A stretch of DNA of 64,000 nt, taken from NCBI RefSeq assembly GCF_964355755.1, contig NC_092678.1:2379922-2443921 (forward strand), given 5' to 3'. Below are positions 2,871 to 60,641 of the stretch, one piece after another. Position 1 is the stretch's first letter; each line of letters begins with the position of its first letter. The notes below the pieces were generated by a model. It was not told the origin of the DNA and did not search any database. It was given only the letters and a program-made list of their open reading frames with translations. The DNA comes from Antedon mediterranea (lineage: Eukaryota; Echinodermata; Crinoidea; Comatulida; Antedonidae). Made by a program: the position numbers and the translations under genes.

Positions 2871-3722
2871 AACATTTTGGCATACATGGCGTGTCATAAC
2901 TATGTTATAGAGGGTGACAAACCGATAATTATGATTATGAAACTGTAACAGTGATTGTGATTGTATACCAGAAGACAGAGGGCGCCAAACCGATGAAGTT
3001 GTAACAGTGATTGTATACCAGAAGACAGAGTGCGGCAAACCGATACTTTTAATTATCATGAAGCTGTAACTTGATTTGGCATACATGGCGTGTCATAACT
3101 ATGTAAGTTATAGAGGGCGGCAAACCGATAATTTTAATTACCATAAAGCTGCTGTAACAGTGTGATTGTATACCAGAAGAAGACCGATAATTTTAATTAT
3201 CATAAAACTATAACAGCGATTTGGCATACATGGCGTGTCATAATTATGCCAGTTATAGAGGGTGGCAAACCCATAATTTTAATTATCATGAATATGATTG
3301 AATATTATTACAGGTATTAGAGTTTATAAGTTTGTGTATAATAGTGTTGATGGCTTTCTGAGATCTCATTGATATTTTAGAGGCCTTATATGTGCAGGGG
3401 GACAGAGACAGTTTATGGCAAAAACTGCTATTTAATTCAGTTTTACTGTCGTCTCCTGAACGACTAGTAGTTACTTTAAATATTCATAGAAGAAAATATT
3501 TTGGCATACACGGCGTGTCATATTTATACCAATTATAGAGGGCGGCAAACCGATAATTTTAATTATCATGAAGCTGTAACTTGATTTGACATACATGGCG
3601 TGTCATAACTATGCCAGTTACAGAGGGCGGCAAACCGATAATTGTAATGATCATAAAGCTGCTGTAACAGTGTGATTGTATACCAGAAGACAGAGAGCGG
3701 CAAACCGATAATTTTAATTATC

Positions 3723-6213
3723 ATGAAGCTGCGCTTTCGAAAACGAAACAAAAATGGACAAACACTCATAGATTTCTGTGAAAAACACAATTTATTCATA
3801 ACTAACAGCGCGTTTCAGCATTCAGCACGTCATATAACTACATGGTCCCAACAGAGAAGAAATTCCAAAGGAGAACTGATCAAACTGTACACTCAAATAG
3901 ACTATATTATATGTAAAAGTAGATACAAGACTCTCCTAAAGAACGCTAGGTCATACAACGGAACACTTTTAGATAGTGATCACAGAATAGTAATCACAAC
4001 ATTCAACTTAAAATGGCATCGCGTCAACAAACAAAACACTAACAAAAACACTAACTTATTTGCATGTGAAAAGCTAGTGACAAGCGAAGAAACTAGGAAT
4101 TTATACGTAGAAAAACTGAAAGAATGCATAGATGTTGTTGTGAAACCGGATCAGCCAACCGTTACATGGCAGGAATTGAAAAGCGTCGTGAAGGCAGCTG
4201 CAAAACATACAATAGGACCAAAACAAAAGGTCGGCTACAACAAAAGGACATACGATGACACAATCCAACGCCTATCAACGCAGCAAAAAGAACTTAGACT
4301 ACAAATACCTAACTGCAAGTCGGAAATCGAACGTACATCATTAAAGCAAAAAAGAAACAAAATCATGCATGACATTCAAAAAAGAGTAATTGAAACACGC
4401 AACAAAGAACTTGATCAGAAAAGTTTGGATATCGACAAAGCGATAGGGGGCGCCCAAATGTTTAAAGCAGTGAAAGATCTTAATAGAAAACCATTCGAAA
4501 ATCCAAAAGTGTTTGATGCTAACAAAAAGTTTATTGCCTCACCAAATGGAATAGCGAAAGTAATTGGCAATCACTTCAAAAATAAATTTTACGACGGAAG
4601 CAAACAAAATATAGATTCATTTGAGGGAAATCCTAGGCCATTAAATAAAGAAATCAGTGAAGAGGAAGTAACCAAGAGTCTTAAACGCCTAAACAACAGT
4701 CGAGCAACAGGTGAGGATGGTATCCCAGGAGAACTACTAAAATACGGTTCCCCTGTTCTAGCTCCAATGATTTCAGACATTTTAAATCAAATATTTACAA
4801 AACATGAATTCGTGGATATTAATAAAGGAACACTCATAGCACTACCAAAACCGGGTAAGGAAAAGGGTCCAACTAAGAATTTACGACCTGTTATTCTACT
4901 TAACACCATACGCAAGTGCCTATCGCTTATAACACTGGATAGAATTACATCGAAAGTAGACGCATTCTTACCACAAAGCCAAAGTGGGTTTCGCAAAGGC
5001 AGAAGCACAAGTGATATAGTTTTTACACATAGATGGCTTATAGCTAAAGCACAAAAAGAAAAAATAAATATTTACATAACCGGTATAGATATGTCCAGCG
5101 CGTTTGACACAGTGGACAGAAACAAACTCCTCGACATACTCAAACATATTATAGACGAAGATGAACTTAGGATCGTTAGATTTCTGCTGAGTGAAACCGG
5201 ACTAAATCTAAAAATAAAAGGTGCAAAAGAACAGCCAATATTCCTAACCAACATCGGCACCCCTCAAGGAGATAGCTTAAGCCCGGTCTTATTCACTGTT
5301 TACCTTGAGTCTGCGCTACGAGGAATCAGAACAATTATCCAAACAGAAATACCTCAAGAGATATCATATGCTGATGATGTAGATTTTTTGAGTCTAAATA
5401 GCAAGCATAATGTAAACGAATTAGAACGCCATTTATCAACTTTCAACTTAAATGTAAATAAAGAAAAAACAGAACACACTATCGTAAGACGAGAAAAAGA
5501 GGACATACAAGAACAATGGAGAAACACGAAAAAAGTAGGATCGCTCCTTGGGGACAGACAAGACATAATTAGAAGAAAACAACTAGCGCGTGTAGCAATG
5601 ACCAAACTAAACTCGATGTGGCTTCGAAAAGATAAAATCAAATTAAAAATACGTATCAAGCTGTACAACTCACTAGTTAAAAGTATATTACTCTACAACT
5701 CTGAAACATGGGGACTCACAAAAGAAGAAGCACATAAACTCGACACATTTCACAGACAGCAACTTCGCAAAATCATAGGTATCAGGTTCCCAGACAGGAT
5801 ATCGAACATTAATTTATACAGAAGGACAGGAACAAAACCGATTTCATTAGAAATAGTCGACGCAAGATGGAGACTATTGGGTCACATACTTAGACAAGAC
5901 CCATGTACACCAGCCAACACAGCAATAAGCTATTATTTCAGCAACACTACCAATATAAAATTTCGAGGAAGACCGAGAACCACCCTACCAATAACTCTCA
6001 GCAACGACCTACTCACCCTTTATAAGCATAATACAGACATTAAGTATCCCGGACAATTGAAAACAAAGAAAGACATGAAACAACTTAAAGAACTAGCCAA
6101 TGAAAGATCAGACTGGAAGAAACTAGTAAAAGAGATTTACGGAGCAGCCCAAGCGGAAATGTCGGCAGACTTTTCAGCGGAAAGGCAGTAATAATATAAT
6201 ATGAAGCTGCGCT
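3723..6213 (+). mobile_element. RTE-like LINE, 5'-truncated, with 13-bp target duplication
   Basis: The 13-bp sequence ATGAAGCTGCGCT stands on both sides (3723-3735 and 6201-6213) of a 2465-bp insertion (3736-6200) inside a type A unit of the surrounding array. An uninterrupted unit near 7200 shows the related sequence without the insert. The 5' end lies inside the endonuclease domain, as expected from incomplete target-primed reverse transcription. Only about nine bases (TAATATAAT) separate the stop codon from the target duplication. A very short, TAA-like 3' tail is typical of the RTE group of non-LTR elements. Confidence 0.85.
3736..6191 (+). CDS. LINE endonuclease remnant plus reverse transcriptase
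   Basis: An open frame of about 818 codons inside the LINE. The frame also runs upstream to 3672 through the host repeat, but those residues are not element sequence. Its N-terminus is the end of an APE-type endonuclease (TLIDFCEKHNLFITNS, QIDYIICKS, then a SDHRIV motif), lacking the upstream catalytic half. The reverse transcriptase follows: EEVTKSLKRLNNSRATGEDG, LRPVILLNTIRKCL, QSGFRKGRSTSDI, the catalytic aspartate region TGIDMSSAFDTVDR, GTPQGDSLSPVLF and the catalytic box YADDVDFL near 5370-5390. A C-terminal LYNSLVKSILLYNSETWGLT region and a GHILRQD segment match the tail of RTE/CR1-type polymerases. No stops or frameshifts interrupt it, so the copy is young. Clade assignment to RTE rests mainly on the short 3' end. 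The copy cannot be autonomous without its endonuclease. Confidence 0.9.
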
Positions 6214-8733
6214 GCAACAGTGATTTGACATACATGGCGTGTCATAACTATGCCAGTTATAGAGGGCGGCAAACCGATAATTTTAATTATCATGAATAAT
6301 ATGGAGGATGAGGATGGAATATTATATTATTAGAGTTTATGACTTGGTAAGTTTGTTTATAATAGTATTGATGGCTTTCTGAGATCTCATAGATATTTTA
6401 GAGGCCTTGTGCAGGGACAGAGACAGATTATGGCAAAAACTGCTATTTAATTCAGTTTTTCTGTCGTCTCCTGGACGACTAGGCCTAGGCCTAGGTAAAT
6501 ATTCATAGAAAAAAATATTTTGGCATACACGGCGTGTCATAATTATACCAATTATAGAGGGCGGCAAACCGATAATTTTAATTGTCATGAAGCTGCTCTA
6601 ACAGTGATTTGGCATACATAGCGTGTCATAACTATGCCAGTTATAGAGGGCGGCAAACCGATAATTTTAATTATCATCAAGCTGTAACATTGATTTGACA
6701 TACATGGCGTGTCATAACTATACCAGTTATAGAAAGAGGGTGGCAAACCGATAATTTTAATTATCATGAATACGATTGAATATTATTATTAGAGTTTATA
6801 AGTTTGTGTATAATAGTGTTGATGGCTTTCTGAGATCTCATTGATATTTTAGAGGCCTTATATATGTGCAGGGGGACAGAGACAGTTTATGGCAAAAACT
6901 GCTATTTAATTCAGTTTTCCTGTCGTCTCCTGAACGACTAGTTACTTTAAATATTCATAGAAGAAAATATTTTGGCATACACGGCGTGTCATATTTATAC
7001 CAATTATAGAGGGCGGCAAACCGATAATTTTAATTATCATGAAGCTGTAACTTGATTTGACATACATGGCGTGTCATAACTATGCCAGTTACAGAGGGCG
7101 GCAAACCGATAACTGGAATGATCATAAAGCTGCTGTTGTAACAGTGTGATTGTATACCAGAAGACAGAGAGCGGCAAACCGATAATTTTAATTATCATGA
7201 AGCTGCAACAGTGATTTGACATACATGGCGTGTCATAACTATGCCAGTTATAGAGGGCGGCAAACCGATAATTTTAATTATCATGAATATGGAGGATGAG
7301 GATGGAATATTATATTATATTATTAGAGTTTATGACTTGGTAAGTTTGTTTATAATAGTGTTGATGGCTTTCTGAGATCTCATAGATATTTTAGAGGCCT
7401 TGTGCAGGGACAGAGACAGATTATGGCAAAAACTGCTATTTAATTAAGTTTTTCTGTCGTCTCCTGGACGACTTGGCCTAGGTAAATATTCATGGCAAAA
7501 AATATTTTGGCATACACGGCGTGTCATAAGTATACCAATTATAGAGGGCGGCAAACCGATAATTTTAATTGTCATGAAGCTGCTCTAACAGTGATTTGGC
7601 ATACATAGCGTGTCATAACTATGCCAGTTATAGAGGGCGGCAAACCGATAATTTTAATTATCATCAAGCTGTAACATTAATTTGACATACATGGCGTGTC
7701 ATAACTATACCAGTTATAGAAAGAGGGTGGCAAACCGATAATTTTAATTATCATGAATATGATTGAATATTATTATTAGAGTTTATAAGTTTGTGTATAA
7801 TAGTGTTGATGGCTTTCTGAGATCTCATTGATATTTTAGATGCCTTATATGTGCAGGGGGACAGAGACAGTTTATGGCACAAACTGCTATTTAATTCAGT
7901 TTTCCAGTCGTCTCCTGAACGACTAGGCCTAGTTACTTACTATTAATACTAATATTCATAGAAACAAATATTTTGGCATACATAGTGTGTCATAACTATG
8001 CCAGTTATAGAGGGCGGAAAACCGATAATTTTAATTATCATGAAGCTGGAAGCTGTAACAGCGATTTGGCATACATAGCGTGTCATAACTATACCAGTTG
8101 TAGAGGGCGGCAAACCGATAATTTTAATTATGAATAAGGTATAAATATGACACGCCGTGTATGCCAAAATATTTTTTCTATGAATTTTTAAAGTAACTAG
8201 TCGTCCAGGAGACGACACAAAAAACTGAATTAAATAGCAGTTTTTGCCATAAACTGTCTCTGTTCCTGCACATATAAGGCCTCTAAAATATCTATGAGAT
8301 CTCAGAAAGCCATCAACACATTATAAACAAACTTACTAAGTCTAATAAACTCGAATACAGTAATAATATTCAATGCATATTCATGATAATTAAAATTATT
8401 GGTTTGCCGCCCTCTATAACTGGCATAGTTATGACACGCCATGTATGCCAAATCAATGTTACAGCTTCATGATAATTACAATTATCGGTTTGCCGCCCTC
8501 TATAACTGGCATAGTTATGACACGCCATGTATGTCAAATCACTGTTACAGCTTTATGATAATTAAAATTATCGGTTTGCCGCCCTCTGTCTTCTGGTATC
8601 ACTGTTACCGCAGCTTCATGATAATTAAAATTATTGGTTTGCCGCCCTCTATAATTGGTATAATTATGACACGCCGTGGCCATGTGTGTGTGTGTTGTTT
8701 GTTTGCAACATTGATCACGTGTGTTCTGTCAAA

Positions 8734-16367: not shown

Positions 16368-17157
16368 GAATTACAGTGGTACAGTATTTTGCCAGTCTTG
16401 AAGAGACAGTTAGGTTGGTGCATCAACACCATGTGATAAGTGGACATGGGAATATGCAACAAGATTGTGACTTAGTAGGAGAGGCAGCTGGGCTGTCACC
16501 ACAACACCCTGTGATAAGTGGACATGGGAATATGCAACAAGATTGTGACTTAGTAGGAGGGTCAGCTAGGCTGTCACCACAACACCCTGTGATGAGTGAA
16601 CATGGGAATATGCAACAAGATTGTGACTTAGTAGGAGAGGCAGCTGGGCTGTCACCACAACACCCTGTGATAAGTGGACATGGGAATATGCAACAAGATT
16701 GTGACTTAGTAGGAGGGTCAGCTAGGCTGTCACCACAACACCCTGTGATGAGTGAACATGGGAATATGCAACAAGATTGTGACTTAGTAGGAGAGGCAGC
16801 TGGGCTGTCACCACAACACCCTGTGATAAGTGGACATGGGAATATGCAACAAGATTGTGACTTAGTAGGAGGGTCAGCTAGGCTGTCACCACAACACCCT
16901 GTGATGAGTGAACATGGGAATATGCAACAAGATTGTGACTTAGTAGGAGAGGCAGCTGGGCTGTCACCACAACACCCTGTGATAAGTGGACATGGGAATA
17001 TGCAACAAGATTGTGACTTAGTAGGAGAGGCAGCTGGGCTGTCACCACAACACCCTGTGATAAGTGGACATGGGAATATGCAACAAGATTGTGACTTAGT
17101 AGGAGAGGCAGCTGGGCTGTCACCACAACACATCCCGTTGTAACACAACAAAACAAG
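16368..17157 (+). other. Candidate exon made of a 78-bp minisatellite
   Basis: The segment lies between an acceptor-like CTTGCAG (ending 16367) and a strong donor AAG|GTAAGT (from 17158). One frame is open until a TAA at 17141-17143 and would encode nine near-identical 26-residue units such as GNMQQDCDLVGEAAGLSPQ. It needs one base from an upstream exon. I recognise no family. Because 78 is a multiple of three, all frames of a unit without stops stay open, and the opposite strand is open too, so length is weak evidence of coding. It may be an exon of a non-coding or decayed transcript. Confidence 0.3.
16424..17127 (+). repeat. 78-bp minisatellite, 9 copies, dimeric higher-order pattern
   Basis: Units start at 16424, 16502, 16580, 16658, 16736, 16814, 16892, 16970 and 17048. 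Two variants (GGAGAGGCAGCTGGG and GGAGGGTCAGCTAGG) alternate in units 1-7, so a 156-bp dimer has been amplified. Units 8-9 repeat a single variant. Confidence 0.97.
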
Positions 17158-22064: not shown

Positions 22065-22400
22065 TGGTGGGAGGAATCACGTCTTGGAGTAAATCCTGAT
22101 CATCTCTTCTCTTTGCAAATAATGTTGTTTTGATATGGATTTTCCATTCAAAGAAGAGGCCATAGGAGCAAAGAATGAGGCCATAGGAGCAAAATATTTT
22201 ACCTAATTCATCATTCTTGCATTGTTCATAACATTAAGTCAAAATTTGAAATTAATTAAATGGTTTTTTTTGTGTTTTTCAGGTTACGCAAGATTGGAGA
22301 TGGACAACTTATTTCTATTTTTTATTAATTTTTTTTATTTTGCACATAGCTTTCATAATTTAATTAAATTAATTAAAAATAAATAATATAATTATAAAAT
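22065..22400. other. Intergenic, AT-rich
   Basis: No gene seen. A small direct repeat, GAGGCCATAGGAGCAAA, lies near 22158-22193. Confidence 0.4.
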
Positions 22401-22409
22401 AAATTTTGT

Positions 22410-24030
22410 AATTAGCAAATCCTCACTAGCAATGAACAAAATTTAACCTTAAAAAGCAATCAAATTTCTTAAAATATAACTTCAAATTGTATAGTGATCA
22501 CCCACACAGGAGTGCTTCCTTGATATCATGATTGTATGCATTTTAAATTTCTCTATTTTTCTTTTAAATGGTATCAAGAAAAATTAAAATTTATTCAATT
22601 TATAGTTGATCACCTACGCCAGAGGGGATACTGATATCATGATTGCTTTCATTTTTCTGATTTGGTTTTACATGGTATCAAATAAATGAAATTTAAACTA
22701 AACTGTTTTAATTGAATAATCACTAATCAATAGTGATTTAATAATTAATATTTTAATTATTGTAATTTGTTTTTGCTGGTGAGGTTCTTTTTTCTTCTAT
22801 GGTGTATTAGCAAATCCTCATTAGCAACAACAAAATAATTGTAATAATTCAAAACAAAAATTTAAATCTTGTTTAAATGAAAATCAAAATTTATTTTTAA
22901 ATTTCCTAAAATTATATCTAACTTTATATTAAATCTGGATTCACTTGTCTCGGAATGTCAAGTGTATTCCCTGATACCATGATTGTTTTAAATTTTTCAC
23001 CTCTATTTTCTTTTTTCATGGTATTATAAAAAAAATTCAAAATTTGAAATCTCATAGGGGTTTACTTGTCTCGGAATGTCAAGTGAAATCCCTGATACCA
23101 TGATTGATTGTTTTTATTTTACATTTTTGTTTTACATGGTATTCAAATAAATAAAAATTGTAAATGTTATACAATTGCTAACAACTTTGGCTTAAGTAAT
23201 TTATTTAAATGTAAACATTTATTTTTGCTAATGAGGTTCTTTTTTTTCTCTCTTGGGTGCAATTGTAATTCAGAACCCCACATTAGTGAATTTAATCAAA
23301 ACAAATGTAATTTTATTAAAAATTTAAAGGGGTTTTCTTAAAATTTTTTCCAATATTTGCTTACATTTCTTGAAATAACTTGAAATTTAATTTTAAAAGA
23401 CATCTCATTCTGAAAATGTTGAGGGTAATTCAAGATACTATTATTAACAATTTAAATCTATTTCGTTTGGAATGGTATCTTAAAAATCAATTTATAAATA
23501 AAAAGTACATACTGTGTCTGCACAGTATGTATCAAAATTGTTGAATTGATACCATGATTGTTTTTATTTTAAATGTTTCCTATTTTGGTTTACATGGTAT
23601 TAAAAAATAATAAAAAAAATTTAAAAAACTAATAAGTAAATGATGTTTGCTAATGGGGTTCTGTTTACTCTTGCTTTGGTCCTGGTGCAATGTTTAGAGT
23701 TCAAATTGTGTACACTCATTAGCAATGAACAAAATAACTGTAATTTTATATTAACTTGTTGAATTTCTTTTTTAAAATCTTGAAAATACTTTTGGCAATT
23801 ATTAATTTATTTAAATCTAAATTGAATGTACCTATCCATGTATTAACCTCTGTGGGATAGGATAATGCGTGATACCATTATTATTTACTATTTTGGCTTT
23901 ATATGGTATCAAAAGAAAACATATTTATATTTAAATTTATTCAAAACGTTTCATTATATAAACTGTGATACTTTACAAATTTGACTAAAAATTTAAATTT
24001 AGTGATTTGTTTTTGCTGATGAGTTTATTT
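22410..24030. repeat. Strongly diverged ~430-bp units keeping hairpins
   Basis: About four AT-rich units share layout more than sequence. Each has CTCAYTAGCAA, then one or two hairpins of the form TGATACCATGATTG...CATGGTATCA, then TTTTGCTRATGAGGTTC and a T/C-rich stretch. Those hairpin starts lie near 22521, 22632, 22972, 23093, 23434 (weak), 23548 and 23869. A second, variable hairpin usually precedes each, for example TACATACTGTG-TCTG-CACAGTATGTA at 23507-23532 and CACTTG...CAAGTG at about 22942 and 23065. CTCATTAGCAA can pair with TTGCTRATGAG. Confidence 0.6.
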
Positions 24031-24361
24031 TCTTTCTTTGTACAACTTAGTACCGTACTTGCGTAAATAAGCTGCCGTTTATTTTGGATTTAGTAATCAC
24101 CCTCTTAAAGCGTTAAGTTTGCGCAATTGCTAGACGCATGGTTATTGCCTACAAACATTTTAAAATTTTAACTGATTTTCGCCCATGGGTTTTCTACATT
24201 ATAAATTTAGTATATGGTCTTAACGTTGTGTGTTATTTTCCGAGAACATATCTCATCTAAAAAATGTCCTGTAAAATTCCACTGCAAAACTTCTGCGTAA
24301 TAAGAGAGAGTACGGTACCTTAATCTATTTTAATTGTGTAGATATAAATTGTTTTTTAACC

Positions 24362-24879
24362 ATGTTTGTTGATCACTTGAAATACGATGAGAACCAATGC
24401 AATGGTACCACACATACCAATGACGTTGACGGGGAGCCACAGAATGTGATGAACCATTTACAGATGTTTAAATGGTATGTCTGCAATATTCAAAATTTGT
24501 TTTAATTATTATTTATTCTTAATAGTGTCTGTAAAAATGAACATGATACTAGCCTAACTTAACTTAGATTTTTAGCTTTACCCATATTTATATTAATAAT
24601 GTATATTATTATCCACATTTATTTGATAAGCAGTGGTGATTGGGTAACATACATTAACATAAGAAGACTTCTTATAAAAATGAATTCATCATTTGAAAAA
24701 CTAAGGTGAATAACTGTCATCACTTATCAGTGTTAAATATATGTTCTTTCAGGTACGTGCTTCGACCAATCAAAGAAGACTATTTGTCGAGGAGCATCTC
24801 AGAGGAGGAAGCTTCGATTCACCACCAATTTCAAGATCAACAAACATTTATATATTTGATTGTCATTTTAATATTGTAA
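24362..24879 (+). CDS. Small two-exon protein with hydrophobic C-terminus, unidentified
   Basis: Exon 1 (24362-24474) starts at an ATG after AACC and ends at TG|GTATGT. Exon 2 (24753-24879) follows TTCTTTCAG. The join completes a TGG codon and the frame stays open to a TAA at 24877-24879, giving 79 residues. The N-terminal part is polar and acidic (YDENQCNGTTHTNDVDGEPQ). A basic/acidic middle (YVLRPIKEDYLSRSISEEEA) follows, and the last eleven residues (TFIYLIVILIL) are strongly hydrophobic, as in a tail anchor. I recognise no family. The consistent splice signals support a gene, but length and isolation leave room for chance. Confidence 0.4.
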
Positions 24880-24884
24880 TTGTT

Positions 24885-25309
24885 AAGTGAAGTGGAATAA
24901 TCTTTATAACAATTTTCAAAATTATTTTTTCTATTGGCAAATGTTTTGGCTATTTGTTTAAAATTTATCTAATTTTATTTTAAATTGATTAAATTATAAT
25001 TTTTTTAAATGGAAATTTGGTTTTAAATTATTTATTATTAGTTTTATTGTAAATTGTGATTTAAATTCAAATCAAATTTAACCTTGCAAATTTCAAATAA
25101 AATTATTTTTTCTATTGGCAAATGTTTTGGCTTATTTGTTTAAAATTTATGTAATTTTATTTTAAATTGATTAAATTATAATTTTTTTTAATTGAAATTT
25201 GGTTTTAAATTATTTATTATTAGTTTTATTGTAAATTGTGATTTAAATTCAAATCAAATTTAACCTTGCAAATTTCAAATAAAATTTTTACGTGAATTCC
25301 ACTTCACTT
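24885..25309. mobile_element. Small foldback with internal 181-bp duplication
   Basis: A 14-bp perfect inverted pair, AAGTGAAGTGGAAT at 24885-24898 and its complement at 25296-25309, encloses two tandem copies (period about 181 bp) of a very AT-rich sequence beginning ATTATTTTTTCTATTGGC. It starts six bases after the stop of the small gene. Confidence 0.7.
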
Positions 25310-25384
25310 TTTATTTTTATATTATGTATTTATAGTTATTTTGTATTTAGTTACAGATTTCTTCCGAACTCTAAGCATTGTACA

Positions 25385-25497
25385 ATGCACCTCTCTGCCA
25401 CCCCCTCGTGTGCCCCACTACACCGATGGGTATCAGCCTGCTCGGCTACACGGTGGATGCTTCCTCGGGTCGTGTTCGTTGCTCCTGCTAAGTGGTG
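25385..25497 (+). repeat. GC-rich ~100-bp dispersed segment, copy 1
   Basis: CTCGTGTGCCCCACTACACC and GCTCGGCTACACGGTGGATG, ending TCGTGTTCGTTGC, stand out as GC-rich in AT-rich surroundings. The same segment lies inverted at 29338-29447. Here it follows TAGTTACAG and runs into a GTGAGT donor at 25496, so it could be an exon. Confidence 0.8.
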
Positions 25498-25499
25498 AG

Positions 25500-26125
25500 T
25501 TTGCTTTAAGATTTTCTATGAAAGTTTTAGATACACGTTTCATGTTCTATGTAAACTACATTTTGACCAAATGCTTGTGAGAGTCCTTTACAGTCCTTTG
25601 TGGTGTTGGCATTGTGGCGGTGGCACCATCATCAGTGTATGGGTTTACGAACTAAACAAAGCAGGAGTTAAATAACTTAATAGACTGGTTTCAGTATATT
25701 TTATGGTTCCGTTTCCAATTTAAATAATTTAATAACTCAAAAGACATTTGCGTGCATGTACAGTAAAAATGTTTTGAACTTTTTGGTGGTTAGACAAACT
25801 TTGTGTGATGCATTCCTCTTCGATCTGGCTAAGTAAGCAGGCAGGAAATTATACGATACTATTCTCAAAGTATGCTTGATATATTTATCCCAAAGATTTG
25901 GTACCAATTTAATTAAATACAATCAAATAATTTAGCATACCAATAATTCACAATCTCACACATTACAAGCAATACAATAAATATAAATTTTTATATTTGC
26001 AACAAAAATGATTAATATAACTATTTGAAAAATAATTTGAAGGTGACATTTTAAATTGAAAATTCTCTAAAAATAAATATTAAAATTTTAAATTAACTAA
26101 ATTCATTGTAAATTTAATTTTGTTT
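25500..26125. other. Intergenic, AT-rich
   Basis: No gene or repeat recognised between the GC-rich segment and the 28-bp array. Confidence 0.4.
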
Positions 26126-26129
26126 AAAC

Positions 26130-27255
26130 TTAGCTGCCAGTTAGTGGATTTTAAAACTTAGCTGTCTGTAAAGGGATTTAAAAACTTAGCTGCCCGTAAG
26201 GGGCTTTTAAAACTCAACTGCCCTTAAGAGGCTTTTAAAAATTGGCTGCCAGTAAGGGGCTTTTAAAATTTAGATGCTCGTAGGGGGCTTTTAAAACTTA
26301 GCTGCCCGTAAGGGGCTTTTAAAACTTAGCTGCCCGTAAGGGGTTTTTAAAACTTAGCTGCCTGTAAGGGCCTTTTAAAACTTAGCTGCCCGTAAGGGGT
26401 TTTTAAAACTTAGCTGCCCGTAAGGGCCTTTTAAAACTTAGCTGCCCGTAGGGGGTTTTTAAAACTTAGCTGCCCGTAGGGGGCTTTTAAAACTTAGTCG
26501 CCAGTGAGTGGTGCATTTAAAACTTAGCTGCCAGTAAGGGGCTTTTAAAACTTAGCTGCTCGTACAAGGCTTTTAAAACTTAGCTGCTCGTAGGGGGATT
26601 TTATAACTTAGCTGCCCGTAAGGGGCTTTTAAAACTTAGGTGCCCGTAAGGGCTTTTTAAACTTAGCTGCTCGTACGAAGCTTTTAAAACTTAGATGCCC
26701 GTAAGGGGCTTTTAAAACTTAGGTGCCCATAAGGGGCTTTTAAAAATTGGCTGCCAGTAAGGGGCTTGTAAAAATTGGCTGCCAGTAAGGGGCTTTTAAA
26801 ATTTAGCTGCTCGTAAGGGGCTTTTAAAACTTAGCTGCCCGTAAGGGGTTTTTAAAACTTAGCTGCCCATAAGGGCCTTTTAAAACTTAGCTGCCCGTAG
26901 GGGGTTTTTAAAACTTAGCTGCCCGTAGGGGGCTTTTAAAACTTAGTCGCCAGTGAGTGGTGCATTTAAAACTTAGCTGCCAGTAAGAGGCTTTTAAAAC
27001 TTAGCTGCTCGTACAAGGCTTTTAAAACTTAGCTGCTCGTAAGTGGATTTTATAACTTAGCTGCCAGTAAGGGGATTTTAAAACTTAGCTGCCCATAGGA
27101 GGCTTTTAAAAATTAGTCGCCAGTAAGTGTTGAATTTAAAACTTAGCTGCCAGTAAGGGGATTTTAAAACTTAGTCACCTGTAAGGGCCCCTAGTTGCCA
27201 GTTATTGGTGAATTTAAAACTTAGTCACCAGTGAATGGTTAATTTAAAACTTGGC
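26130..27255 (+). repeat. 28-bp tandem array, block 1 (~40 copies)
   Basis: The unit is close to ACTTAGCTGCCCGTAAGGGG followed by CTTTTAAA. Most copies can fold as GCCC-GTAA-GGGC or with one extra G. A second subfamily reads TAGTCGCCAGTGAGTGGTGA and pairs GCCA with TGGT. Copies are diverged, with subfamily patches repeated as longer blocks (for example 26450-26600 resembles 26895-27050). Confidence 0.95.
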
Positions 27256-27580
27256 TTTAATCTATGAAGTCAATTTGCTGACCATTTACTTATGGAAATT
27301 TTTATTCCAATAAATAAATGTTGTTAAATTTATTTGTTTCATTTTGTTAATATTTTTTGTTGCAAATATAATAAAAACAATTTAAATATATGATTTAAAC
27401 CCTGCATCAATGCATAATTTAATTTATTTTGGTCCACACAAATTCAATGAGAAGTCGTCATTGTAATTAAACATTAGATTATAAACAATTCATTAAGTAT
27501 TTTGTAAAGCATCATTCATCATTCAAGTGTATTTTCTACCAAAACAAACATTAATAAATTACTAAAGCTAGGAATCATTT
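27256..27580. other. Unrelated AT-rich spacer between the two array blocks
   Basis: Sequence without the 28-bp unit. It begins with CTATGAAGTCAATTTGC and has no coding signal. It could be an insertion into a once continuous array, but no target duplication is evident. Confidence 0.5.
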
Positions 27581-27584
27581 TTTT

Positions 27585-28520
27585 TTTAAAGCTTAGCAGC
27601 CCGTAAGTAACAATTTAAAACTAAGTTGCCAGTGATTGGTGAATTTGAAACTTGGTTGCCCGTAAAGGATTTTAAAACTTAGCTGCCTGTAAGAGGCTTA
27701 TAAAACTTAGCTGCCCGTAAGGGGCTTTTAAAACTTAGCTTCCCGTAAGGGGCCTTTTAAACTTAGCTGCCTGTAAGGGGCTTTTAAAACTTTCTCTGCC
27801 CGTAAAGGGCTTTTAAAACTTTACTGTCTGTAAGTGGCTTTTAAAACTTAGCTGCCCCTAAGGGCCTTTTAAAACTTAGCTGTCCGTAAGGGTCTTTTAA
27901 AACTTAGCTGCCCGTTAAGGGGCTTTTAAAACTTAGCTGCCTGTAAGGGGCTTTAAAAACTTTCTCTGGCCATAAGGGGCTTTTAAAACGTAGTCTCCCG
28001 TTAGGGCCTTTTAAAACTTAGTCACCGATGAGTGGTGAATTTAAAATTTAGCTGCCGTAAGGTTTTTAAAACTTAGCTGACCGTAAGGAGCTTTTAAAAC
28101 TTAGCTGCCTGTTAGGGGCTTTTAAAACTTGGTCGCCAGTGAGTGGTAAATTAAAACGTAGCTGCCCGTAAGGGAATTTTAAAACTTGGCTGCCCGTAAG
28201 GGGCTTTTAAAACTTAGCTGCCCGTTAGGGGCTTTTAAAACTTTGTCGCCAGTGAGTGGTAAATTAAAACTTAGCTGCCTGTAAGGGCCTTTTAAAACTT
28301 AACTGCCAATAAGGAGCTCTTAAAACTTAGCTGCCCGTTAGGGGCTTTTGAAACTTAGTCGCCAGCGAGTGGTAAATTAAAACTTAGCTGCCCATACGGG
28401 GCTTTTAAAACTTAGCTTCCCATAAGGGGCTTTTAAAACTTAGTCGCCCGTGAGTGATGAATTAAAAACTTAGCTGCCCGTAAAAAGGCTTTTAAAACTT
28501 AATCGCCAGTGAGTTTGTTT
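27585..28520 (+). repeat. 28-bp tandem array, block 2 (~33 copies)
   Basis: Continuation of the same unit and both subfamilies in the same orientation, with GTCGCCAGTGAGTGG-type copies interspersed roughly every few units in the second half. Confidence 0.95.
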
Positions 28521-28524
28521 TGGT

Positions 28525-29335
28525 AGAGTTTATACATACAGACATTTGGTTACTACAGACATTAAGAATGTAAACAAATTTACACTAAAGCAAATAATGG
28601 CTTCTCTTAATTTAAGATAGGAATAGTTGGTACCGTATCTGAAGGGTAAATGAGTTGGGCAGTATAACAATTACACTGTGCTGTCCTGAAAACGAAGTCG
28701 TTGGGTTTGGTATTACCAGAGAGTCAACCTTATTAAATTATATAATCCAAATTATGTACTGCACAATTTGTTTTCTTGAGCTAATATAGGCATCAAAATT
28801 ATTGACATCAAATTTTCTGAAACCAGTCTGGCTTTATTTTCCACAACAAAAGATTGGGTTTGCATTCGTGTCGTGCGAAGCTATTACAAGCTTTGTTCAA
28901 CATAAATGCGTCCAGTTTGATGTTTTGGGAATTTAGTCTTAGGACCTCTTACCTTTCCAACTGTAAATATTAATATACAATGTAACCTTCTGGTTATGTT
29001 TAAAATAATATAGGTGATTATATGTATATCAAAACTTGTCAAAATTCTTTATTATTCATATTTATTTTATAGATTTTTTAATATTAAAACTTGTCAAAAT
29101 ATAATTGAAATATCCAAATTTTAATATAAACATATTCAATAATTCCTATGCTCAAATAGCATATAACTCCACTCCTGATGACGTTTAGGAGAGCCCAGGG
29201 CGATTCCCTCATGTGTCAGCGTCCCTGCATTGGAGTATTGGGTTCTCACTTGTGTTTGGTCTTTCTGTAGTTTACATTGAACTTTAATCGTTGTCGATTG
29301 AAACTTGTGTCTTTGACTTTCTAGATGTCTTGGAG
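28525..29335. other. Intergenic, no gene seen
   Basis: AT-rich. Short frames are present but without splice or family support. Confidence 0.4.
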
Positions 29336-29337
29336 CA

Positions 29338-29447
29338 TTCTTGCAGCTTAGTAGTTGTGGCGGACACGACCCGAGGAAGCATCCACCGTGTAGCCGAGCG
29401 GGCTGACCCGATCGGTGTAGTGGGGCACACGAGGGAGTGGCAGAGAG
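29338..29447 (-). repeat. GC-rich ~100-bp dispersed segment, copy 2 (inverted)
   Basis: Reverse complement of 25385-25497 over about 100 bases with few changes. Together the two copies flank the 28-bp array in opposite orientation, about 4 kb apart. The splice donor next to copy 1 is not conserved here. Confidence 0.8.
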
Positions 29448-29532
29448 GCTTTGCTTTATTTTGTACATGAAATAAAAATGATTGATTCACTATGTGCACT
29501 CTTGTCTTTTATTCATTGGTGTAATTGCGAGC

Positions 29533-32547: not shown

Positions 32548-34085
32548 TTAAAGAGCTGGCTTGGCCCATTTGTATGTACCGGTAAAAACAAAGTTATGTT
32601 TCTTAAGAAGTTCATCCGCTTCTGCAGGACCTCGTCTATAAACAAAAAAATGTATTATTATTAATATATTATTATAATAATTAACTGTTACTAATTAATT
32701 ATATATTCTAAGGGTTATCAGAAAACTTCGATTCTGTGAAGTATATCGTTCCTATAAATTTATTGCGTAAATAAAATTCAAGCTCTCACTAACAGGGCGA
32801 GCATCTTAACTGTTAGACCACAGAGGCTCCATAGTTAAACAAGTTCAAATAGCTATACATTGTTTATTGTCAAAGAGTGTTATTGATTTATTTATTTTCC
32901 AGTTTATCACTGAGTAGTTTCGTCATGCCTGTTAAATTTATATATACCATAACCGAGATACTCCTAGGGGGCTGGAAACATTATCAGGCTACAGTTAGGG
33001 GGTGGGCTTATACTCATGTATGGGATTATACTTGGGCATACAGTACATACACACCAATGCAATTGATAAGCATTGTCTACTTACCCTCCGTATTTATACT
33101 CAATTGGTTTCGGTTTATCGTTTTCAATTTTGTGCAAAAGTGGTGTAAAGATTCTCCATGCCTCGGCCAACTCATCACTAGAAATTTTTAAAAAAACAAT
33201 AAATTAGAGAGATATGATGTAACTTAATAATGAATTTGTCATGTTCACGAAACCATATTATTTCAACTACATTGGATAAACATACCTTCTGACAAAATGA
33301 ATTTGATGGCCACAGAAAACATCTAGAATCAACCTTTCATAAGCGTCCGGCATAGACACGCCTTTGTAACGAGAGCCGTAAGTAAGATCTAATTCAGTCT
33401 CCTCAACGTCAAAAGACATGCCTGGTTTCTTGGTCATCATTTTACAATAAACAGCTTCACCGGGTTGTACACGAATTACCAGCTCGTTACGCTTGCAATT
33501 ACCGCTGAAGATGTCTCCTGGTACGTCTTTAAACTGTACACGTACTTCAGCTTTTCTTTCATTCAAGGCTAAATATTGAAAAAGACTATTAGTTTAAAAC
33601 ATGTTCATTACCTAATGAAATTTGGATTAAATTAAGAAGGGGTCTGTTCTTGCTGCATAGCGCTGAATAAACCGTTTTTTTTCCCAAAGTATCAGTTTTA
33701 CGCAGACCGCATTTATACTAAATTTCTGCTCTCAATAAAGGTTAACAGCAGAAACAGGACCATGGTATTGCTTTTATCTTAGCTCTCATTACAAGGCTCT
33801 GATAGTAACACTCAAGTGGTCATATTCACCAATCACACTTAAGTATTAGGTCAATTAGGTCAATAAATATAAAAGGATTTCCTTATAGAAGAATGTTTTT
33901 AAATTTTAAGGGTTTTTCCCTTAGCCCAAGTGTGATTCGTGAATATGCCCACAGGTGTATGACTTCATGGAAAAACAATTATTCAAAATTCTTACCTTTT
34001 CCACATTTTAAGATAAAAGGTACACCTGAAAGATTAGTAAAGAAGAGTCAATTAATTAGTTTCATTGAAATAATATTATTATTAC

Positions 34086-34133
<48 letters not shown>

Positions 34134-37100
34134 AAATATCAGGCTTCTTAGTACAAACACCAAAGACGGCTTGCTTATTATTTTAGTTTTTTTTTTTCTA
34201 GCTGGATTTGCTGGATTTGGGAGATAAAAATGAGCACTAATAAAATCAGGTGATTCTTTTTTCAATTAAATAAGTGAATTTTTTACTAACCGTCCCATCT
34301 CTCATTTTGAATTTTGAAGACGGCCGTGGCAAATGTAGGAGTGACAGACCCTTTGGGAACAGTGGGATCATCAAGGTATCCTTCCTTGGCATCTACATCT
34401 CCATCTGGATCACCAACGTACTGACCTAACACAACATCATCTAAAGTTAAGGGTTCAATGCGCTTCAACACTTTTACCTATAAATGAATACAAAAAATTA
34501 TATATTTAAAGTTTACACTGTGAAGAGTTAAAACATGTCAACAATTGTATATACATAAGTTTACACTGTGAAGAGTTAAAACATGTCAACAATTGTATAT
34601 ACATAAGTTTACACTGTGAAGAGTTAAAACATGTCAACAATTGTATATACATAAAATCTAAGCTAATAAAACTAAGTTCTGAATATTGTATTCAATGTGA
34701 CTTGAGTCCAATGAGTGCGTAATGAGGCAGAGATTACTTTATTTGTTTTCACAAAATAAACTTTAAAATGATGCATAACTAATTCTGTAACATCAATTTA
34801 AGACCCTTTGATCCATTATTCAACAATAGCCTCATGGGGAATTATGCAACATAAAATTACAGTTATCAATTATTAACTTAGATTAGAAATGAAATTAAAT
34901 TCATAAAAAGAAAAACTTTTTTATACTCATGGCAAATTCATTCTCATGAATATATCATTTATCAAGCAATATCAATACATTAGTGCAAATTAAGTAATTA
35001 CATTATTTTATTGCACTATGATAACAAGTCAATCACAATACATTAAGGCTGATTATTCCTTATATTAATAAAATATATTAATTGTACTATAAATAGCTTT
35101 TTATACCTTCTCATCTCGTATGTCTTTTGCATCCGTTGACCCTGGTTTTTCCATTGCAAATAATGACAAAATTTGTAGAAGATGGTTTTGCATAACATCT
35201 CTGAAATTACATAAATATTATTTTCATTAATATATTAATATATAAGTGATAATATATAATATTACTGCCCTGTAGTCAGTGTCAACCATGCTTAAGCCTT
35301 GTTCACACTGGACTAGTCAGTGTCAACCATGCTTAAGCCTTGTTCACACTGGACCTTTTATGGTCAATTTAATCGCATAGCTTTACCCAATGTCATTGGA
35401 AGATTTTACCATTGTTCACGCAGTTAGATTTACCATAATTTTACCAAAATTTTACTGTGATGTAAAAAAAACCATTGACATTGTGTTAACATGAGTCGCA
35501 TGTTCGGATTGGACTTCTTAGCCATGTGGTTAGTATTACCAAGACCATGGTTAGTTTTACTGGACAGGCAGTGGTCGGTAAAAGTAACTATTGGACTTGG
35601 TTAATTTAACCTTGTGGGAATTGCAGGCAGTTTTCGGATTGGACTTCTTGGTCACTTAAGTTGGCGACTCGGTCCAGTGCAATCAATGCTTTAGTACCAT
35701 ACAAGATATTCTTTATAATATATTTTTTCCAATTCTCACTAACACCCTCAAAGAATTTCAATATACAGTACATGACTGAAAATCTTACTGTACCTTATAA
35801 TACCAAATTCATCAAAGTAGCCTCCCCTTCCAGTCGTTCCAAAGGGTTCTTTAAAGGTGATAATAACACTAGCTATGTTATCACGGTTCCAAACAGGTGC
35901 AAAAATGCGATTTCCAAACCTACACAAAAATAAAAAACAAAGAAATAACCCATGAATTTGATATAATAATAATAATGAGCTGATAGGCAGGGATGATCGG
36001 TGCGGCCTTCCAAGACTATGTCTATAATAGAATGTATAACAAACCAATCATCTGCTTTTCAATGTATATTATACCAAGGCAATCTAACAACAGGACACTA
36101 AGCTCGCCTTGCCAAGATAGGAACGTGTAACAGTCCTTTGATCTTATGTCTGGCTGCAACAAATACCAACAATACTGTACTATGTACATACTTTCCACAA
36201 CGAGCTGTGTCTGTTAACGGACGTTGAACTGATCGTGTCGCAGCCACAGATAAACCCTTTGATCTCCAGAGCTCAGCAGCCTCTTGTTAGATTATACTGT
36301 ATGTGTATTTTCTATTGTGTAATGCAATGGAGGGCACGCTAGTATAAGTTACAGTAAATGTCTTACACATTAAGTGCCACCAATCAAGTATGATGTACAT
36401 TCCCATATGTTAATAAACTACCTTACAAATACCTTAAAATCATTAAATTCTGCACCATTTCTTTGCCAAGATAATGATCAATACGGTACATCTGGTCTTC
36501 AGTGAATAACGCACTAAGGTGGTTAGAGAGGTCGGCAGATGATGCAGAGTCCTTCCCAAACGGCTTCTCAATAATCACACGTGTCCATCCTCTATTAACA
36601 TAACAAAATACAACTTGTGATGTGCCCATATATGGACATAATGATCATATCACTACCATATTTGAGCACATCACACTTTTCTAGTTTGATAGTGTAGACA
36701 GAGCTTTAAAGGTTACAATCAAACATATACACAAGATGCTCTACATAAACAAACAAATAAGTTTTAAACACGTTTTTGCAGTGGAGTTAATTTGTTTATC
36801 ATAACAAATCCCGACATCTAACAGGATTTGAACCCAGGACCCTATTACCCACTGTGTCACAACTCCGATATTTCAATACAAGTCATTGGATAATACTGTA
36901 CCTTTTGCTCATGCATTTTGCTTTGATGTGTTTTGTAACATCTTTGAAAACGCTTGGTGGAAGGGCGAGGTAGAACAGTCTGTTTGCAGGTTTGTCCTTT
37001 TTCTTATCTTCAATTGCTGTAAGTACATCATCTAAGTGTTCAAAGCCGTCTTCTTCTTTGTACGAACCCTTTACATAGCGATTCTGTTTAAAGAACTCAT

Positions 37101-47751: not shown

Positions 47752-48920
47752 GACTCCTTCCCTTCCTCCCTCTGATATATCTAGCCCTTTCAATACGAAA
47801 ACAGCATCTACCTAGGTATATGCCTTTTTAAATTTTAATAAATACTTTATGAATTAAACATCATTAAATAAATAAAAAGAAAATACATACATCTAAAGCT
47901 GCAATGCCTTCTGTATAATTTTAAGAGACCACCTTATTTATATATCAATCTTGTAGTATTCAAACTGTTTTTAATATTATTATTAATTGAATATAAATGA
48001 AGGTATAATAACATTTCCCGATACGTTATTATTATGTGCTGTTAGTAATTACAATTTTTTATATTCCCGTGTGACAAAATCATTTATACGCTATGTAAAC
48101 CATACACTAATTCTTCCCAATAAATAAGGTACTCTACCTGTACAAACAATTAAAAGTTTAAAAAAATGTTGTGGTGCAATATCGTGTGTAGCTAGCATAG
48201 GGTATTAGTGCGAGGTACTTTCGAATTTGTTGCGGACTTCTTTAATTGTGCGAGGAGCTTTCGAATTTGTTGCAGACTTCTTTAATTGTGCTTAGCTCTT
48301 CTTTAATTGCGTGTTTCTTCTTTATTTGTGCATTTCGTTTTATATTTTCATGCTTTCTTTTGTTTATGTGCAATTCCTTCTTTAATTGTGTGAATATGAT
48401 TTATATAGTGTGCGTGACAGATGTGGGTCACCGTGTATGAATAAATCTATTTTTGGTACATAAATTACCCTTGTGTGAAACAAGGGCTGAGAAAAATTGA
48501 GTTTAAACTCAATGAGTGTTCCCCTGCACGGAAATCTTTAGTAAAAGGCGAAAGATTTATGCGTGATGCAGAGAAACCAGAGTAACGATGTATGTATACC
48601 ATATATTATTAATATACCAAGTACTATCACAACAAATAAGTGTTGAATTTGGTAAAAAAACGTAAATTTATGTATTGGCAAATAAATATAAAATTTGTAT
48701 TTAATTTTGTTCTATTTACAGTTTTAAATTATATAAATAATAATGACCAATTTATTACTGAATAATCCAGCAAAAACTATAATTTTTATTTTAAAGATTA
48801 AATTATGAATATTTATTAGGTAAGGGTTTATATTATAGAGGGCGTGTTTTATAAATAAAGGAAACGGGAATGTTCTGTTTTGGTTTTTTTGGTTATTCTT
48901 TTTCTCATAAAAACAAAGGA
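47752..48920. other. Head-to-head interval between G6PD and LAGE3
   Basis: About 1.2 kb that should hold both promoters. It includes an imperfect repeat at about 48205-48380 (TTTCGAATTTGTTGCGGACT, then TCTTTAATTG) and no coding segment. Confidence 0.5.

Positions 48921-51681: not shown

Positions 51682-60641
<8,960 letters not shown>

Follow-up and report, generated by a model that had tools for sequence, protein, structure and literature searches.

The hairpin array at positions 22421-24024 of the window (the whole 64,000-nucleotide stretch of DNA analysed here, C9:2379922-2443921) belongs to a six-copy family located on one chromosome, whose members have lost their open reading frames, conserve splice-like and poly(A)-like signals and preserve base pairing of the RNA type. 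This is probably a family of spliced, multi-domain, structured long non-coding RNAs (lncRNAs) that act as protein-binding scaffolds. The reading that we favour, and to which we give somewhat better than even credence in its full form, is a spliced and polyadenylated non-coding gene with six paralogues on a single chromosome, its RNA folding as a row of domains, with a ~100-bp 3' hairpin and with hairpins on which protein docks. We infer the transcription, exon structure, protein binding and cellular role of the family from the DNA sequence.

Architecture of the hairpin array

How is the array built? The initial annotation had described about four units of ~430 bp, and both a check of the sequence and folding against shuffles bear out its observation, the motifs that it named being present where it had placed them. 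There are indeed four domains, but in this copy (copy W) they measure 311-421 bp and are not uniform. Each has its hairpins enclosed by a long-range stem of 12 bp, an arm of the CCTCAYTAGCAA type opening the domain and one of the TTGCTRRTGAGG type closing it. Within each domain lie one or two units, in which a variable hairpin is followed by a constant hairpin, TGATAYCATG, a loop of 22-36 nt and ATGGTATYA. The constant hairpin occurs six times in the window (at 22521, 22632, 22972, 23093, 23547 and 23870), two of these in d1 and two in d2, with a degenerate seventh at ~23433. The domains and variable hairpins are as follows.

22421-22784, + strand: domain d1, arms CCTCACTAGCAA/TTGCTGGTGAGG, two constant hairpins
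22816-23236, + strand: domain d2, arms CCTCATTAGCAA/TTGCTAATGAGG, two CACTTG/CAAGTG-type hairpins with a constant hairpin after each
22942-22964, + strand: variable hairpin CACTTG/CAAGTG, in d2
23273-23661, + strand: domain d3, arms GAACCCCACATTAG/TTTGCTAATGGGGTTC
23506-23531, + strand: variable hairpin TACATACTGTG/CACAGTATGTA, in d3
23714-24024, + strand: domain d4, arms ACTCATTAGCAA/TTGCTGATGAGT
23831-23861, + strand: variable hairpin CCTATCC/GGATAGG, in d4

Folded against shuffles, two hairpin pairs of the window gave z = -3.26 and -3.92. Across the six copies all 18 domains beat dinucleotide shuffles, with + strand z values from -2.2 to -8.2, usually more negative than those of the - strand. 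Consensus folding of 22 hairpin units supported the constant hairpin only, because the variable hairpins cannot be aligned between domain types. These differ in sequence and still pair, as the initial annotation held; several, however, are not homologous position by position and mostly show no strict covariation. No alignment can be made between the variable hairpins of d2 and those of d1, d3 and d4, so that pairing in the latter is not formal covariation and a comparison of paralogues is needed as the covariation test.

Six copies on one chromosome

Does the array recur elsewhere? The initial annotation had proposed looking for further copies, and a search of the genome (354 Mb, 18 contigs) with the array returned five further loci, all on C9.

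C9 1.003 Mb, - strand: copy A
C9 1.434 Mb, + strand: copy B
C9 2.402 Mb, + strand: copy W, the window copy
C9 2.758 Mb, + strand: copy D
C9 24.307 Mb, + strand: copy E
C9 24.766 Mb, - strand: copy F

All six lie no more than 2.8 Mb from one or the other end of C9, which is 26.05 Mb long. DNA searches of the 354-Mb genome with the array, two downstream blocks, the array of copy A, a 5' block and the 28-nt unit found no further member. Outside the family they matched a ~75-bp dispersed repeat that lies inside copy A, and a single 40-nt AT-rich stretch on C3. The repeat piece in copy A occupies ~4150-4230 of L023 (- strand), and the repeat itself is dispersed over many chromosomes. The exact constant-hairpin pattern gave 0 matches genome-wide; it misses the copies because their right arm has a T or they differ from the pattern in other ways.

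The array itself sits within a larger module, window ~22283-29490, of which the six copies span 7-15 kb and have an intron-like structure in common. Blocks shared by the copies lie at 24304-24517, 24707-24907, 25293-26035 (84-87% identity to W) and 28534-29519 (80-85% identity); identity of the array exon among the six is 53-83%, and overall divergence between copies is 10-45%. The module also contains a tandem array, found with TRF:

26126-28501, + strand: 28/29-nt tandem array (AAACTTAGCTGCCYGTAAGGGG...), present at six of six loci

Exact matches to a 22-mer of the repeat unit number 73 genome-wide, and every one falls in one of the six loci. Identity is mosaic, copies A and B being 91% identical in the last block and 56% identical in the array exon, which points to exchange between copies; exchange or gene conversion between loci of the same chromosome has probably occurred. 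A promoter-like block (CAATCAGCCAACCAG, TATATAGAG) 2-5 kb upstream is common to B, D, E and F; in the genome search none was found for W or copy A, and W could for this reason be silent. Copy D carries a palindromic insertion, GTTTGCGGTACACCACGTG...CACGTGGTGTACCGCAAAC, in its domain d3 (L025 ~5180-5340), probably a small mobile element.

Against this divergence two segments stand out, both predicted to be intronic.

25556-25643, + strand: 88-nt segment, without a difference among the six copies
29193-29247, + strand: 55-nt segment, invariant in the six copies

Their surroundings differ by ~10-20% among the copies. Neither core folds better than its shuffles, which suggests that the segments may be bound in linear form. 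The prediction of introns could also be incomplete around them.

Might the modules themselves be a dispersed mobile element, whether a non-autonomous DNA transposon, a Helitron-like element or a retroelement, with subterminal inverted repeats posing as domains? Such elements usually have inverted repeats, a high AT content, a tandem minisatellite and dispersed copies, all present here. Many copies across chromosomes would be expected of a DNA transposon or satellite, however, and there are six loci on one chromosome only, a distribution that also speaks against the known satellite that the initial annotation had named as what would overturn its reading. Nor does a mobile element fit modules of such length with a shared intron-like structure, the survival of 88 unchanged nt in copies so diverged, the strand asymmetry of G-U pairs described below, or homology whose ends vary from one copy pair to the next, with no coincident common termini. 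We regard this explanation as highly improbable.

Other features of the window

A complete U5 spliceosomal RNA gene (48467-48585, - strand, 98 bits) is the sole Rfam match in the window. Exons of G6PD, one of them sharing about three quarters of its residues with a solved animal G6PD, lie at 33267-36047 (- strand), and those of an AHCYL-type adenosylhomocysteinase at 53696-59450 (- strand). These two genes indicate an animal genome; searches for GFP and for COX1 gave no match, a result that does not show either to be absent. A reverse-transcriptase open reading frame of 839 aa (3672-6191, within 3500-8587) is flanked on both sides by arrays of an 85-89-bp repeat (TTTGRCATACAYGGCGTGTCATAACTATACC...), one of them inverted. 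At 16424-17131, nine copies of a 78-bp tandem repeat give open reading frames of 267 and 242 aa, one on each strand; the repeat may encode a repetitive protein, its period being a multiple of three, or may be a minisatellite.

A predicted spliced transcript

What kind of transcript would contain the array? Splice-like signals are common to the copies, and the array is therefore predicted to fall within a single exon of a non-coding transcript that is read from the + strand and spliced, with the following parts.

22275-22282, + strand: predicted 3' splice site (TTTTTCAG) before the array exon, polypyrimidine tract and AG in six of six copies
22283-24474, + strand: predicted array exon (d1-d4 and conserved block 1), homologous in the six copies
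24475-24752, + strand: predicted intron GTATGT...TTTCAG, donor in six of six copies, acceptor YAG in all
24753-24886, + strand: predicted exon (block 2), copies 78-81% identical to W in matched stretches, its 3' boundary (a GTGAAG donor) a guess
24883-24898, + strand: left half of a predicted intronic stem, TTAAGTGAAGTGGAAT, pairing with ATTCCACTTCACTT at 25296-25309, from sequence and alignments
24918-25286, + strand: 182-bp tandem duplication in copy W, intronic, found with TRF
25357-25494, + strand: predicted exon, left arm of the 3' stem, its acceptor and its donor (GTGAGT after G, 25495) kept in six of six copies
29325-29490, + strand: predicted terminal exon, right arm of the 3' stem, acceptor CTTTCTAG in six of six copies

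The array exon would be ~2.2 kb long. The donor at 24475 is GTATGT following AAATG; the acceptor of the same intron was located in copy A by alignment, the body of the intron being poorly alignable. A poly(A) signal, AATAAA, is found at 29471, and in all six copies one lies within 220 nt of the last acceptor.

The initial annotation had put the array just upstream of a small gene (MFVDHLK..., ATG at 24363). The product of that frame has no Pfam match, and in the paralogues this block 1/2 'gene' has lost its ATG and suffered frame-breaking indels; this block and the array appear instead to lie in one non-coding transcript, the array within an exon of it. The arms of the 3' stem likewise carry 1-nt indels among the copies, and the family has no conserved protein-coding frame.

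Conservation of pairing

If the paired segments function as RNA, how have they changed among the copies? All comparisons are among six paralogues within one genome; the G-U and A-C counts that follow are not phylogenetically independent. The arms closing the domains (19 domains with ungapped 12-nt arms, six copies) form 201 Watson-Crick, 18 G-U, 2 A-C and 6 other pairs. When arms are swapped between the nine distinct pairs, the paired fraction drops from 0.97 to 0.89; with unique arm pairs, the observed pairing was reached in ~3 of 20,000 shuffles (P ~1.5e-4). Double changes that keep a pair were seen in the outermost pair of d4 (C-G to A-U), between d1 and d2 (C-G to U-A), and in d4 (A-U to G-C, CTCGTTAGC/GCTAACGAG) and d5 (G-C to A-U, ATTAAC/GTTGAT) of copy A.

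The 24 constant hairpins comprise 206 Watson-Crick, 19 G-U, 1 A-C and 14 other pairs (P = 4e-5 for G-U versus A-C). In the CACTTG/CAAGTG hairpins of d2, pairing is kept mainly through G-U, with one two-sided change. Strict two-sided covariation is rare in the short hairpins (1 of 21 pairs), the signal being mostly G-U.

The third element is the 3' stem. The predicted exons 25357-25494 and 29325-29490 carry complementary arms, which predicted splicing would join into one ~100-bp hairpin in six of six copies. Across the six, the spliced hairpin has folding energies of -141 to -218 kcal/mol (+ strand) and -79 to -201 kcal/mol (- strand); the corresponding duplex energies are -141 to -216 versus -72 to -202 kcal/mol. 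Of the 87 pairs, which were taken from copy W irrespective of strand, each other copy retains 48-58 as Watson-Crick, 17-23 as G-U and 3-4 as A-C. G-U occurs in 30 columns as against 7 for A-C (two-sided binomial P = 2e-4, the columns not being fully independent), and in seven columns both sides have changed with pairing kept. The stem of W is near-perfect and may have been renewed by arm-to-arm conversion, in which case some two-sided differences may reflect conversion rather than stepwise compensation. From W to the majority, C>T changes in the right arm number 13 and G>A changes 3, versus 20 and 17 in the flank of the same block. Such an asymmetry in the paired arm, absent from the flank, is not predicted by cruciforms or by the neutral decay of inverted repeats.

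Base pairs are thus kept through substitutions in the domain stems, the constant hairpins and the 3' stem, and we take it as established by the sequence that these three separate structural elements preserve pairing in the manner of RNA, and specifically of the + strand. The initial annotation's view, that selection keeps the pairing as the bases change, holds up in the five further copies, given the compensations in the domain arms and in seven 3'-stem columns and the excess of G-U over A-C on the + strand. It had left the choice between RNA and cruciform open; because of the strand asymmetry of the non-canonical pairs, with G-U in excess of A-C, RNA is favoured and a DNA cruciform disfavoured.

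The same evidence bears on a satellite or cruciform array that acts at the level of DNA, has no RNA function and owes its form to slippage and inverted-repeat conversion. Conversion from arm to arm can maintain complementarity without selection, and exchange among the copies is visible. But conversion gives Watson-Crick pairs alike on both strands; G-U to A-C ratios of 19:1, 18:2 and 30:7 are not predicted by it, and neither is a C>T/G>A asymmetry confined to the paired arm. We consider this the least credible of the explanations weighed here.

The 3' hairpin and double-stranded RNA

Could the ~100-bp 3' hairpin be the active part of the transcript? The loci would then be a family of hpRNA/endo-siRNA loci or a dsRNA decoy, the hairpin being processed by Dicer to siRNAs that act on a target or remaining uncut as a sponge for dsRNA-binding proteins, and the 5' domains shaping the precursor. 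Such a role of the 3' hairpin ranks as the main rival to the scaffold reading. A long hairpin within a spliced transcript is what an hpRNA locus should have, and it is present in the predicted transcript, whose spliced exons unite both arms in six of six copies. The rncs-1 gene of C. elegans, a single small gene, makes a non-coding RNA with a long double-stranded hairpin, and offers a precedent for the uncut form, being described as resistant to dicing (PMC5415849); the hairpin is the likeness, and only the C9 family has an array of domains besides. Closer parallels are the hpRNA precursors of Drosophila, which are often spliced, polyadenylated and in related copies; in D. simulans, the two loci of one related pair lie at the two ends of the X chromosome (PMC10317233). 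They share with the C9 family a long inverted-repeat hairpin in a spliced precursor (here a predicted one) and related copies on one chromosome.

On the other hand, the arms of the C9 family are old and rich in G-U, the stem in five of six copies containing ~20 G-U pairs and several mismatches, unlike that of young siRNA hairpins. Among the best candidates scored there was no antisense match, and hence no target, outside the C9 family, which is weak evidence. The large conserved 5' domains are additional to what hpRNA precursors have, and the explanation does not account for them. We judge it rather unlikely.

Comparison with known RNAs

Rfam scans point to no known RNA family: the covariance models gave no match at E up to 1 for this copy and up to 0.5 for two others, and the gathering scan found only the U5 gene elsewhere in the window. 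What the six loci encode looks like a structured RNA family that is apparently undescribed.

Under the scaffold reading, the predicted RNA would fold into successive domains independent of one another, with a long-range stem closing each and one or two paired hairpins inside. The repeated hairpins would be multivalent docking sites for an RNA-binding protein, and the 3' hairpin might serve protection, maturation, stability or localisation of the RNA, or the binding of a dsRNA-binding protein.

This logic has parallels. The roX RNAs function in X-chromosome dosage compensation, and their roX boxes are bound by MLE/MSL2. In Drosophila, roX1 and roX2 are redundant lncRNAs with repeated, conserved stem-loops whose structure is kept beyond sequence (PMC7734150). 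The likeness, that of long non-coding RNAs with repeated and conserved stem-loops, is architectural only: flies have two genes as against six C9 copies, and the C9 family additionally has the long-range domain-closing stems and the long 3' hairpin. Xist and Rsx are long lncRNAs in which repeats, for example RepA of Xist, form structured protein-binding modules (PMC7734150); repeated structured modules in a long RNA, here a predicted transcript, are again the shared feature, and each is a single gene as against six paralogues near both ends of C9. The comparison with roX and with the Xist A-repeat and Rsx is one of working logic, in which they appear comparable, and not of membership.

Biological meaning

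Why should all six loci lie on one chromosome? They may produce an RNA specific to their chromosome, which it would mark or regulate, in sex-chromosome dosage or in meiotic pairing or silencing; we think this improbable. If true, it would be an invertebrate case of a chromosome-marking RNA that evolved independently of roX and Xist. The restriction to C9 may be functional, or it may have arisen by duplication and inversions within one chromosome; inversions stay within a chromosome, so that a restriction of this origin would carry no functional meaning. The structured RNA family would still be new.

To our knowledge, long RNAs with demonstrable selection on a multi-domain structure are rare and come mostly from flies and mammals. 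With six members in one genome, the family provides its own comparative data set for structure, splicing and copy-specific compensation, and the confinement of its loci to the two end regions of one chromosome opens a role at the level of the chromosome to direct testing.
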